Origin: a virus
Virus record (IMG/VR): IMGVR_UViG_3300006922_000046
Span: 1-44,883 of that record
Length of the DNA stretch: 44,883 nt
Reading direction: 5' to 3' (one strand)
Positions within the stretch are counted from its first letter, which is position 1, and the number at the start of each line of letters is the position of its first letter. Position numbers and translations under genes: made by a program. A model generated the notes under the pieces. It saw only the letters and a program-made list of their open reading frames with translations. It was not told the origin of the DNA and did not search any database. Shown here piece after piece: positions 1,970 through 36,089 of the stretch.

Positions 1970-3145
1970 TCAACGACCTTTTTTTCTTTTACTGTCGCCA
2001 AACCCCCATTTATTTGCTAATTCCGCAACAGAACCTATTTGTATTTTAAGACCATCATTATTTTTTTCAACCCTTTTTGATGGGGTATTTTTTGGGATAT
2101 AGACTTTATTTGTATTTTGTATAACGGGTTTAGATTTGGTTTGTTTTATTACATTCGTTTCATTAGGTGAAAAACCCTTAATAATATCTGAAATTTCTTT
2201 TTTTAACTTGAATAAGTCATTCCGATTATTAGGTTTATTTTGTTTAATCGTTACTCTTTTTTCTTTATTTTTAACACTTTTTAACGATTTGTTAACCTCA
2301 CTATAATTAATATCTTTACGTTCTTTTTTAATTATTTTTTCCTCATTTAAATATTTGATTACAACATCTATACTATTAAACTTTTTACGGTTTTTTTGTT
2401 TATTTGTTGTTTCACCCATAGTGACAGGTAAATAACTTTTTAAACTGTAAATGTACTTTGCAGTTCTCCCCTGTAAGGTTTTATCTTTAAAATCTGTTTT
2501 ATCAGAATAAGACTGTCTGTCGTGCCATATGTATGTGTATAATGGTTCATCTATATAATGAAAGTGTTCCTTACCACACATCTCTAAAATAGGAATTCCA
2601 TGACCTAAATCACACGCGGCTTTAAAATAAGAACCTTCAAACTGTAAATCTTCGTCATCAATTAAGTTAAATAAAAAAGACCTAAATGTCCTGAGATGAG
2701 AAAAATTCCAAGAGGTCTTTCTTGCTCTATGTGGTTTAGGTTTACCATAGTTACCTATTTTACCGTATTGGTCTTTCCATTTGGACCCACACACCCAAAT
2801 GTTTTCATCCATGAAAACCTTATTTAACCTACCCAAAACAAAATTATCCGATAATCTATCGTCACCATCTAATTCAATTATAACATCATCCCACTTAATA
2901 TCATTATTATTTCTAATAATGTCAATGAAATTCTTTGTTTTATGTTTTTTTATTTTATTCTTAATAAGAACGAAACGGTCATCACCACCTATAGTTTCTT
3001 TAGCAACATTATAGGAGTTATCTGTTGAAACGTCATCTATAAAATAAGCTTTAAAGTTAGTATAGTATTGGTTTTTTAAAGATTCTATACATTTTTTAGT
3101 TAATTCAGGTGAATTCCAAAAAGGTGAGATAATTATTAAGTTCAT
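1970..3145 (-). CDS. Family 2 (GT-A) glycosyltransferase with long C-terminal extension
   Basis: Residues 1 to about 230 form a GT2 domain: the start NLIIISPFWNSPELTKKCIE, a YFIDDVSTDNS nucleotide-binding segment and a later ELDGDDRL carrying the DxD-type metal-binding acidic cluster. The remaining roughly 150 residues are Lys/Asn-rich and low in complexity, probably a linker or anchor. Such enzymes transfer sugar from a nucleotide donor in the cytoplasm. The start is the second Met, at 3145, because a TATTTATT element lies 25 nt upstream and the preceding residues are hydrophobic leader read-through. Donor and acceptor unknown. Confidence 0.8.
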   Translation of the reverse strand: MNLIIISPFWNSPELTKKCIESLKNQYYTNFKAYFIDDVSTDNSYNVAKETIGGDDRFVLIKNKIKKHKTKNFIDIIRNNNDIKWDDVIIELDGDDRLSDNFVLGRLNKVFMDENIWVCGSKWKDQYGKIGNYGKPKPHRARKTSWNFSHLRTFRSFLFNLIDDEDLQFEGSYFKAACDLGHGIPILEMCGKEHFHYIDEPLYTYIWHDRQSYSDKTDFKDKTLQGRTAKYIYSLKSYLPVTMGETTNKQKNRKKFNSIDVVIKYLNEEKIIKKERKDINYSEVNKSLKSVKNKEKRVTIKQNKPNNRNDLFKLKKEISDIIKGFSPNETNVIKQTKSKPVIQNTNKVYIPKNTPSKRVEKNNDGLKIQIGSVAELANKWGFGDSKRKKGR

Positions 3146-3170
3146 AAAATAAGTATTAAATATATATATT

Positions 3171-3178
3171 AATAAATA
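3171..3178 (-). promoter_or_regulatory. TATTTATT late-type element
   Basis: The octamer reads TATTTATT on the minus strand, 25 nt before the glycosyltransferase start. No TTTG -33 box is present. Confidence 0.4.
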
Positions 3179-3194
3179 CAACTTTAATTCATAT

Positions 3195-3764
3195 ATGTCA
3201 AATCAAATTTTCGAAAAACCTAAAAGTAAAATTTTTCACGTAATCCCATGGGATTCCAATAAAAACATTGGGGAGTCTTACAACAATTCTATGTCTAACG
3301 TTGGGTCTAAGGATTGGGTATGTTTTTTAGATGGCGATGCGGTACATACCACAACATTTTTCGGAAAACATATTGAGGATGTAATTAATGACAATCCCGA
3401 ATATGATTTATTTACTTGTTATACCAATAGAATAGGTTTTACACCTCAAATAGCCCCGGGGGTTGATAAGAATACTAATGACCAAAAATACCATAGGGAT
3501 TTTGGTACTCAAATGTGGGAGAAGTACGGTACTAATGTTAAAGACGTTACTAAACTTAATTATATTAGTGGCGTTATTTTATTAATAAGAAAAGATACTT
3601 GGGAAAAAGTAGGGGGTTTTAAATCGTCAAAAATGTTAGGGGTTGATAACGATATCCATATGAAAGTTCGTAATTACGGAGGTAAGGTAGGTTTAATGAA
3701 GGGAATATATGTTCAACATTGGTATAGAGGTGGTGATAAAAATTATACAAAACACTTAAAGTAA
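3195..3764 (+). CDS. Glycosyltransferase, GT2/galactosyltransferase-like, 189 aa
   Basis: VCFLDGDAV holds the DxD metal-binding motif, and SGVILLIRKDTWEKVGGF matches the C-terminal segment typical of GT-A enzymes in which the acceptor site follows the donor site. The protein is compact and appears to lack the N-terminal Rossmann strands of a full GT2 (it begins about where strand 2 or 3 would be). It may therefore be a shortened domain or work with a neighbour. It abuts the next gene with zero spacing (stop 3762-3764, ATG 3765). Part of the glycan cluster. Confidence 0.65.
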   Translation: MSNQIFEKPKSKIFHVIPWDSNKNIGESYNNSMSNVGSKDWVCFLDGDAVHTTTFFGKHIEDVINDNPEYDLFTCYTNRIGFTPQIAPGVDKNTNDQKYHRDFGTQMWEKYGTNVKDVTKLNYISGVILLIRKDTWEKVGGFKSSKMLGVDNDIHMKVRNYGGKVGLMKGIYVQHWYRGGDKNYTKHLK

Positions 3765-5269: not shown

Positions 5270-6127
5270 TCATCCCTTCAATCTTTTCATAACTTTTTTG
5301 TGGTATGGTCTACTAATGACATCACAATATGGGTCCCATGTTGCACCCATATCTATTTGTGTGATAGTATTTGAATATTTATTATAAAACTTATCACACA
5401 TAATTTTGGCAACGAAGGAACAAGAATATAAAACAACAGGGTTGTTAGTTTTATACTTTTTAAGTAAATTACCAAGATTGATTTCAATCTCATCCATAAC
5501 CGTTTTTTCAAATAAACCAACCATAGGAGTTTCAATATGTTCTCTATCAAAACCTTTTAATTTCTTTAAATAATCAGGACCAACTAAAATTACTGACCTA
5601 TTTTTAATGGAATTAATGAAATCATCTAACCCCTTAGTGACCGACACACTTCTAAATATTTCACCAACAATTAAATTTTTTAAGTCTTTAAGGTAAGGCC
5701 AAACTAATCCAACTCTTTCATCAAAAGTTCCGGCATTAACTGAAATATAATATTCAGGTTTTTGTTTAATAATTTTTAATAACTCATTACTTAAAGGTTC
5801 TAATCTAGGCCGAGGACCATTTCTATATTTTCTACTATAATGAGGTTCTATTCTTAACATACAAGACCATTCCCCATCTTGATATCTGACTAAAGTAAAA
5901 TTATCAAAATTATTAATTTTATTAATGACCACAGGATAACTCATATACTCCCATTCTATTTTTTCGGCCAATCTTATAATAAACTCTTTTAGGTATTCGT
6001 TTGAACTTAAAACATAATCTACCTCATTCTTTATATGTGAATGATTATCTTTACTAGAAAAATAATCACCATCATTAATCATTTTACGTAATCCATTAAT
6101 TTTTTCAGGTTCGTTAGTTAATCTCAT
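5270..6127 (-). CDS. Putative GT-D type glycosyltransferase (DUF1792-like), 285 aa
   Basis: The segment NFTLVRYQDGEWSCML contains the R-x-x-DGE motif typical of the GT-D glucosyltransferase fold (DUF1792 family), and SVILVGPDYL resembles the second conserved strand. The N-terminal 60 residues are charged and probably helical. It converges on the UDP-sugar dehydrogenase gene and belongs to the same glycan island. A degenerate TATTTAAT element lies 3 nt before the ATG. The call rests on motif recognition alone. Confidence 0.55.
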   Translation of the reverse strand: MRLTNEPEKINGLRKMINDGDYFSSKDNHSHIKNEVDYVLSSNEYLKEFIIRLAEKIEWEYMSYPVVINKINNFDNFTLVRYQDGEWSCMLRIEPHYSRKYRNGPRPRLEPLSNELLKIIKQKPEYYISVNAGTFDERVGLVWPYLKDLKNLIVGEIFRSVSVTKGLDDFINSIKNRSVILVGPDYLKKLKGFDREHIETPMVGLFEKTVMDEIEINLGNLLKKYKTNNPVVLYSCSFVAKIMCDKFYNKYSNTITQIDMGATWDPYCDVISRPYHKKVMKRLKG

Positions 6128-35155: not shown

Positions 35156-35160
35156 AAATA

Positions 35161-35276
35161 AGAGAGGTTTCGGGTCTTTCGGGGTTCCTGATAGATGATT
35201 TGTTTACGCTCTGACTACTCCAAACCCTTTTTCGTCATTTTAACACCATCATCTATTACAGCTTCACCACCTCTCT
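35161..35276 (-). ncRNA. Structured RNA with a predicted pseudoknot, class unknown
   Basis: In the tRNA cluster, on the minus strand. An 8-bp outer stem pairs 35161-35168 with 35269-35276 (AGAGAGGT/ACCTCTCT). A 9-bp inner stem pairs 35191-35199 with 35248-35256 (ATAGATGAT/ATCATCTAT). Inside that loop GGGTT (35223-35227) can pair with AACCC (35182-35186) outside it, a pseudoknot. Hammerhead core motifs are absent. It may be a ribozyme, a small regulatory RNA or a tRNA-array spacer element. Confidence 0.5.
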
Positions 35277-35420
35277 TTAGTACTACTGGCCGGAATCGAA
35301 CCGGCACGGACATTACTGTCCATTGGATTTTCTTACCTACTATAACTTTCGTTACCAACTTTCGTTGTTTGGGGTCTGGACTTTCTCTTAACCATTTTAC
35401 AGGTTCCTCCCGTCAAGTCT

Positions 35421-35864
35421 CTACACCTTTTTCACGTTTTTACCTCGATATGTATTTGTTTGTGAATGGCAGTTGGGACAGATAATTCTAAGATTATCTA
35501 ATAGATGATTATATCTATCCCCATCTATATGGTCTAACTCAAAACTGAGTTGTTTACCATTCCATTCAGTAACATTACATACCTCACATCTCAATTCCTT
35601 TATACCTTCACTAATTAATCGTTTTCTTAATTTATTAGTTTGGTAATGTGGATGATTACCTGCAAGAATCTCATCTATTGGTATTTTACCGGTGGTCTTG
35701 GGTTTTGGTACACCCTTTCCACTTTGGTTTGGTTTATACACTCCTAAACGTTTAGCATGTCTTATAAACGTATTGTAGTGTAATCCTACCTTCGATGATG
35801 CTCTTGCCATAGTAATCTCTTCCTCACAGGCCTTAATTATTTCTCTATCATTTATTTTTATCAT
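35421..35864 (-). CDS. Intron-encoded HNH homing endonuclease, 147 aa
   Basis: Residues about 96-140 carry the HNH signature: CEVCNVTEWNGKQ, SFELDHIDGDRYNHLLDNL, then ICPNCHSQT, with two C-x2-C pairs, D-H and N. The N-terminal part (MARASSKVGLHYNTFIRHA) is a DNA-binding helix-turn-helix-like segment. Such enzymes cut intronless tRNA genes and so spread the intron. The gene lies in the P6 loop of the intron, and its TAG stop (35421-35423) is part of the intron's conserved R/P7 region. The start MIKIND at 35864 has TATTTATT 3 nt upstream. Confidence 0.85.
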   Translation of the reverse strand: MIKINDREIIKACEEEITMARASSKVGLHYNTFIRHAKRLGVYKPNQSGKGVPKPKTTGKIPIDEILAGNHPHYQTNKLRKRLISEGIKELRCEVCNVTEWNGKQLSFELDHIDGDRYNHLLDNLRIICPNCHSQTNTYRGKNVKKV

Positions 35865-35867
35865 ACT

Positions 35868-35875
35868 AATAAATA
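35868..35875 (-). promoter_or_regulatory. TATTTATT late-type element
   Basis: TATTTATT on the minus strand, 3 nt before the HNH ATG, inside the intron. This would let the HNH gene be expressed apart from the tRNA transcript. Confidence 0.4.
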
Positions 35876-36089
35876 TAAACAAATCAGAAAAACAATCAGA
35901 TGTGTTTACTAAAACGTGAAACTTGGCTCGGGATTGCCATTTTAAAGGTTTCCCCGAATTTGAGAGGTTCTACATTAAGGGTTTCCCCCTAAGCACTCAA
36001 TTTTCCATAAGTCCAACGTGTCTACCAATTCCACCACAGTAGCATTTATGTTAACAAACATTAAAACGATTTAATAACACGTAATATAA

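Follow-up and report, generated by a model that had tools for sequence, protein, structure and literature searches.

Introns of tRNA-Leu(UAA) genes are the classic example of an ancient intron. The locus described here resembles the group IC3 intron of cyanobacterial and plastid tRNA-Leu(UAA) genes in the gene that is interrupted, the position after U34, the order of the core helices and the P, Q, R and S words; it differs in that the gene is carried by a phage, the intron falls in a separate clade and an endonuclease open reading frame (ORF) lies in loop L6. We know of no endonuclease in the cyanobacterial or plastid tRNA-Leu(UAA) introns; the phage copies described here have several. I-Ssp6803I of the cyanobacterial tRNA-fMet intron is likewise a tRNA-intron endonuclease directed at the anticodon region, but it has a PD-(D/E)XK fold, acts at another tRNA and is found on a bacterial chromosome.

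The tRNA-Leu(UAA) introns of proteobacteria and other bacteria, for example Thiomargarita (PMC4853749), share the site and fold of the phage intron, whereas an HNH ORF is present in only 3 of the 88 that we list, antisense in L6 and from another clade. According to a 2014 review, every group I intron known from phages at that time interrupted a protein gene, although phage tRNA genes are numerous (PMC3984707), and no later report of a phage tRNA group I intron was found in the open-licence literature. F-CphI of cyanophage S-PM2, an EndoVII-like enzyme of collaborative homing at psbA (PMC6083498), is a free-standing endonuclease beside an intron at its target, with the intron as shield. That arrangement is absent in the DNA analysed here, where the gene lies inside the intron, and present in ten related phage loci (L006, L110, L248 and others); the differences are that the nuclease is an HNH enzyme at tRNA-Leu and is also found within the intron. 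The T5-type HNH enzyme F-TflIV and SegB of phage T4 are also nucleases of phage tRNA regions, but both are free-standing and SegB is of the GIY-YIG type; a protein of E. coli phage BP32 annotated as F-TflIV, 6 nt from tRNA-Leu, is a member of the HNH family studied here.

It has been called unclear how one target comes to be shared by an intron and a nuclease that stands on its own (PMC10448857). The family of loci assembled here offers candidate intermediate states, from free-standing nuclease to intron-encoded one, side by side, and bears on the route by which a homing endonuclease that once stood free comes to be encoded in an intron. Already known are tRNA-Leu(UAA) group I introns, phage HNH enzymes that stand alone, and collaborative homing of the F-CphI kind; as far as we searched the open-licence literature, the phage-borne tRNA-Leu intron family, its endonucleases and the graded free-standing-to-intronic series are new.

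A split tRNA-Leu(UAA) gene and its group I intron

The window, by which we mean the whole stretch of DNA analysed, comprises the 44,883 bases of an IMG/VR virus record. Upstream of its genes the word TAnnTTTG is enriched and Shine-Dalgarno words are depleted, and its proteins have kin in the huge phages LR745206, LR756502 and LR756501, the Prevotella Lak phages and Tenacibaculum phage PTm1; judged by these signals, the window is probably from a phage of a Bacteroidetes host, as the original prediction presumed. The motif TATTTATA, found upstream of 12 of the 61 ORFs versus 1.0% of random windows (about 20-fold enriched), is likely a phage promoter. The features of the locus are as follows, each with its basis.

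36009..36043 (-): tRNA-Leu(UAA) exon 1, ending ...GGACTT (C32 U33 U34); direct reading and pairing with exon 2
35332..36008 (-): group I intron, 677 nt, after U34, with a terminal G; Rfam, helix pairing and covariance model R1
35995..35998 (-): internal guide GAGU, forming P1 with exon ACUU, with a U34.G wobble at the 5' splice site; direct reading and pairing
35971..35995 (-): P2 hairpin; pairing and two-sided changes in relatives
35962..35967 (-): P3 5' strand CCTCTC, partner GGGAGG at 35411-35406; pairing and covariation
35928..35957 (-): P4 (TCGGG/CCCGA) and P5; pairing and covariation
35913..35921 (-): P6a 5' strand TTTCACGTT, partner AACGTGAAA at 35438-35430 within the 3'-terminal part of the ORF; counterpart stems in L002 and L020
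35866..35908 (-): leader of the HNH cassette, GTAAACACATCTGATTGTTTTTCTG...TATATTTATTAG, with a late-promoter-like TATTTAT; same block upstream of free-standing copies and of those in L1
35421..35864 (-): HNH homing endonuclease ORF, 147 aa, in L6; PHROG, Pfam and AlphaFold
35379..35419 (-): P7, GACTT 35419-35415 with AAGTC 35383-35379, P3' and P8 in between; pairing and covariation
35342..35355 (-): P9.1 hairpin (GTAAC/GTTAT); pairing and covariation
35281..35331 (-): tRNA-Leu(UAA) exon 2, from A35 to the discriminator base; direct reading and pairing

When exon 1 (36043-36009, GCTACTGTGGTGGAATTGGTAGACACGTTGGACTT) is joined to exon 2 (35331-35281, AAAATCCAATGGACAGTAATGTCCGTGCCGGTTCGATTCCGGCCAGTAGTA), all 7 acceptor, all 5 anticodon-stem and all 5 T-stem pairs form, with the break between U34 and A35. 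In the window a split-tRNA scan detected this tRNA-Leu(UAA) and no other such gene, and 40 shuffled sequences gave none. ARAGORN found only the neighbouring tRNA-Glu, -Arg and -Met and did not report it; the intron accounts for the failure of tRNA finders to detect one tRNA in many large phages. The anatomy of the split locus is secure. The exons at 36009-36043 and 35281-35331 had been predicted exactly, and the predicted entry after U34 is read directly and supported by exon pairing. The spacer between tRNA-Glu and exon 2 (35160-35280) has the inverted repeat AAAGAGAGGT...ACCTCTCTT at its bounds, perhaps a processing stem or another small RNA.

Within the intron, helices P3, P4, P6, P7, P8 and P9.1 are fully paired and P2 is paired at 9 of 11 positions; the 5' splice site has the U34.G pair in P1, and the 3' end reads GTAAG/AAAA, leaving a terminal G. 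The Rfam Intron_gpI model scores 35.5 bits in the window against a gathering threshold of 50 because the ORF splits the core, and ORF-less relatives score above the threshold (L393, 78.7 bits; L006, 65.7; L110, 63.4; L353, 60.2). A covariance model (R1) was built from 24 ORF-less intron cores, excluding the window, with helices named by hand. R1 matched the window on both sides of the ORF, with 68.6 bits at 36000-35786 (E = 1e-17) and 67.1 bits at 35513-35333 (E = 2.7e-17), a third match of 5 bits being noise. Among the 24 relatives, two-sided changes occurred in 36 of 49 pairs and 91.8% of cells were paired; the covariation score of this alignment was reached by 0 of 500 shuffles, and sliding the partners by 1-3 columns reduced pairing to 31-44%. 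The complete core pairing, the R1 matches to both halves and the covariation in relatives uphold the predicted group I intron, which alignment with tRNA-Leu introns assigns to the tRNA type (IC3-like).

The HNH ORF inside loop L6

The ORF matches PHROG HNH families with E = 6e-31 and sits, as predicted, in the P6 loop, specifically in L6, enclosed by the 9-bp P6a stem (TTTCACGTT/AACGTGAAA). The Pfam HNH model falls below its cut-off on the window ORF (E = 0.0036) and matches 23 of 24 aligned members. The catalytic His/Asn/His and both CxxC pairs are intact, and CEVC...LDHIDG...DNL...CPNCHSQT is kept in all or nearly all of 22-24 homologues. The AlphaFold model of the 147-aa protein (mean pLDDT 88.5) predicts an N-terminal three-helix DNA-binding region (helix-turn-helix) and a C-terminal HNH domain; a fold search with this model gave no PDB match below E = 0.001, with weak helix-turn-helix and McrA/HNH resemblance only. 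The leader of the ORF contains TATATTTATTAG.

The last codons of the ORF are the 3' strand of P6a and the next ones are P6, with the stop codon between P6 and P7. The stem is kept with other bases in L002 (CCTAAATG/CATTTAGG) and L020 (TCTTAAATG/CATTTAAGA), and ORF and ribozyme are therefore mutually fitted.

HNH relatives beside and within tRNA genes

A search with the HNH protein alone listed 80 loci of 219; the set used below (95 members) combines the protein search, GenBank phages and the intron loci. A tRNA gene lies within 60 nt of 82 of the 95 members versus 87 of 334 other ORFs of similar size at the same loci (p = 9e-27), and the neighbour is tRNA-Leu(UAA) for 36 of 95 versus 14 of 334 (p = 6e-16). 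Isolates with a family HNH beside tRNA-Leu include Edwardsiella phage PEi26, Aeromonas phage avDM5, Klebsiella phage Muenster and E. coli phage BP32, and the uncultured crAss-like cr111_1 has the same arrangement; the HNH beside the tRNAs of cyanophage S-SRM01 falls outside the family.

In the HNH tree, the window groups with L002 and L020, all with the ORF in L6 (support 100/94), inside a seven-member clade (95/87) that also holds L003, L010, L004 and L005; this tree is unrooted, so that the direction of capture, or whether free-standing or intronic copies came first, is not readable from it. In L003 and L010 the ORF is in L1, with exon 1 on one side and the guide sequence on the other; in L004 and L005 it is free-standing, within 5 nt on the 5' side of an intronless tRNA-Leu(UAA). 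The leader GTAnACACATTTGATTnTTTTTCTG..TATATTTATA is common to the L6, L1 and free-standing copies of the clade, which argues that the HNH cassette moved whole. Other HNH lineages occupy the same intron in L1 (L114), sense in L6 (L317) and antisense in L6 (L205, L227, L369 and L392, with a remnant in L380); these lineages beyond the window's clade appear to have entered separately. Short tblastn matches of L114 to other intron cores were left out of the counts, as they arise because its ORF runs on into the ribozyme.

The ORF is open in every sense intronic copy. Among the matches listed, ten phage introns belong to tRNA genes flanked, at a distance of 4-71 nt, by a family HNH, an arrangement seen in none of the 88 bacterial introns, and 31 of 52 phage introns have no endonuclease detected within 300 nt. 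Of the 88 listed bacterial introns, 3 have an HNH ORF, one of these reduced to a remnant; each lies antisense in L6 and belongs to another HNH clade.

Several further arrangements were seen. At L267, a phage tRNA-Leu intron (2838-3689, minus strand) has a 195-aa LAGLIDADG ORF in an unusual position just after the P7 5' strand, with a family HNH also present 71 nt downstream of the tRNA-Leu gene. A separate HNH clade (L041-L081) adjoins or overlaps tRNA-Thr(UGU), the end of the ORF often overlapping the first tRNA bases. At L015/L025, the 5' half of a tRNA-Leu gene (2904-2940) stands directly before a family HNH that is followed by tRNA-Leu(UAG), and may be the remnant of a former insertion.

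Anticodon-arm alleles near the HNH ORF

The canonical intronless tRNA-Leu sequence is GGACTTAAAATCC. The arm GACTTAAAATC occurs in 0 of 11 intronless tRNA-Leu(UAA) alleles beside HNH ORFs of the window's wider clade; these carry GCACTTAAAATGC, as L004 does, GGCTTAAAACC or GTCTTAAAAAC, changed at the closing pairs of the anticodon stem. Control alleles without such an HNH, from loci found by a scan leaving the GACTT bases free, have the canonical arm in 112 of 125 cases. In matched controls (loci with at least 5 tRNAs), the arm is canonical in 34 of 43 and altered in 9 of 43, versus altered in 11 of 11 (p = 1.8e-6); because the HNH-adjacent alleles share ancestry, such p-values overstate independence. 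L006, which has both HNH and intron, keeps the canonical arm, and its closest HNH kin, L007 and L008, have an altered arm and no intron. A second HNH clade beside tRNA-Leu (L024, L026, L039 and others) is accompanied by the canonical arm. The pattern hints that altered arms are cut-resistant alleles, as self-protection from an arm-reading enzyme would predict.

Distribution and ancestry of the intron

Pattern scans, the HNH search and exon pairing gave at least 52 distinct tRNA-Leu(UAA) introns in phage records and at least 88 in bacterial genome records, many of them through patterns requiring GACTT in exon 1. To these is added an unannotated 278-nt intron in an isolate, Agrobacterium phage Atu_ph07 (MF403008, near 113253-112889). 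Such an intron, which the original prediction held would be striking, is thus no isolated case. Among the phages that carry one are two huge phages of 735 kb (L316), another of 595 kb (L317) and T4-like cyanophages (L204 group); the huge-phage paper leaves introns unmentioned (PMC7162821). In a similar neighbourhood, the isolated cyanophages S-SKS1, S-TIM5 and S-SRM01 carry tRNA-Leu(UAA) without an intron, and the site is therefore polymorphic. Bacterial carriers include alpha-, beta- and gammaproteobacteria, cyanobacteria and Bacteroidota; the introns of L343 and L351, just after an mreB-rodA type operon, and of L353, beside SusC/SusD-like genes, are taken as chromosomal because of these neighbours. 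The "cyanobacterial site" of the original prediction holds as a position, after U34, but is not specific, being occupied also in proteobacterial and Bacteroidota chromosomes.

In the intron-core tree, a branch of 1.58 leads to a single clade of the cyanobacterial introns (100/100); the window clusters with L002, L003, L020 and L393 (100/97). The proposed bearing on movement between kingdoms finds no support here, since the window's intron lies outside the cyanobacterial clade; these separate clades speak against cyanobacterial import.

L393, a contig of a Schleiferiaceae metagenome-assembled genome (JAGYIN010000003.1), was considered as a host copy of the intron and rejected. Its intron is identical to that of L002 at 275 of 288 aligned positions; similarity to sister genomes ends at base 5884, within tRNA-Thr and near the contig end; and the L393 genome holds its own intronless tRNA-Leu(UAA), with 1 of 396 genomes of the order matched. 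The segment 5884-6542 is, on these comparisons, almost certainly a phage tRNA array joined inside tRNA-Thr to a host contig (an assembly chimera), and the Bacteroidota label of L393 in the intron-core tree is to be ignored. The spliced L002 tRNA has 1 difference in 85 positions from the intronless tRNA-Leu(UAA) of that Schleiferiaceae genome. The likeliest course suggested by this similarity is that the tRNA was taken by the phage from a Schleiferiaceae-like host and the intron then arrived in the phage copy.

Working model and alternatives

The comparisons give good support to a working model in which a tRNA-Leu(UAA)-specific nuclease was captured by an intron at its target. The intron RNA would fold and splice itself out through the U34.G pair and the terminal G, restoring the tRNA, and the HNH protein would be made from its own late-type promoter. 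It would recognise the canonical arm GACTT/AAAATC of intronless tRNA-Leu(UAA) in co-infecting phages and cut or nick that allele, and repair would copy intron and HNH into it; its own copy would be shielded, the intron splitting the target. The HNH lineage would have been a free-standing nuclease living beside tRNA-Leu(UAA) genes, and the intron at the same target would have captured it, with its leader, more than once. Captures by the window's lineage would account for L6 (window, L002, L020) and L1 (L003, L010), and those from other lineages for L1 (L114) and L6 (L317; antisense in L205, L227, L369 and L392). That the intron has repeatedly taken up a tRNA-Leu-specific homing endonuclease whose target it occupies is, from these patterns, probable. 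We lean slightly towards a wider reading, a phage-wide family of tRNA-specific HNH enzymes with one tRNA gene per lineage, whose Leu(UAA) lineage and an independent group I intron at the same anticodon would have come together several times, with the nuclease beside the intron, in its L1 or in its L6, sense and antisense, and with escape by the intron or by swaps of pairs 30-40/31-39. If true, the loci are a natural record of collaborative homing turning into an intron-encoded endonuclease.

The HNH could instead target another part of the locus or an intronless host tRNA-Leu, serving to attack rival phages or the host and not in intron homing. Phage homing nucleases other than this one are established to act against competitors, and the host Schleiferiaceae gene, with its single difference from spliced L002, means that host DNA would offer the same site. 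We consider this unlikely, because the altered arms and the intron as shield fit the cutting of co-infecting phage alleles. Alternatively, tRNA arrays may be tolerant landing zones, gene-poor and nuclease-rich, in which the HNH has no specificity for the neighbouring tRNA and the L6 copy is one more tolerated insertion. The tRNA neighbours of the family do span many isotypes (Thr, Tyr, Ile, Pro and others), but isotype tracks HNH phylogeny (28 changes versus 40.6 in shuffles, with 0 of 200 as low), whole leader and ORF occur in two different loops of the single intron placed in the neighbouring tRNA's own anticodon, and the anticodon arms are altered; such indifference to the tRNA is unlikely.

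Most listed phage introns (31 of 52) have no endonuclease detected within 300 nt, as would be expected of an inert, vertically kept relic with the HNH as an inactive passenger. Against this stand the intact catalytic residues, the ORF open in every sense copy, the compensatory changes that keep P6a around it, and a patchy occurrence in which some cyanophages lack the intron at this locus, and we hold a relic to be very unlikely. Descent from cyanobacteria or plastids would explain the shared insertion site and intron family, but with the cyanobacterial clade (100/100) on its long branch and the window placed with other phages (100/97) it is extremely improbable. Capture of a tRNA-Leu(UAA)-specific nuclease at its target remains the reading we prefer.

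Related sequences in other tRNA genes

Group I core words of a similar kind lie directly within the anticodon arms of other phage tRNA genes (L085, L122, L174, L180, L119, L104, L124, L164 and L097). The phage tRNA-Leu introns of L220, L272 and L309 have a greatly enlarged periphery and divergent core words, and no HNH-like ORF was seen in those of L220 or L309. In Atu_ph07 (L587), an annotated hypothetical protein (AUZ94936.1, 1813-1929) runs across the intron 3' end and tRNA exon 2, and is probably a spurious gene call. At L006, a GOLLD RNA (1109-1572, 205.7 bits) surrounds a tRNA-like stretch in the phage tRNA array.
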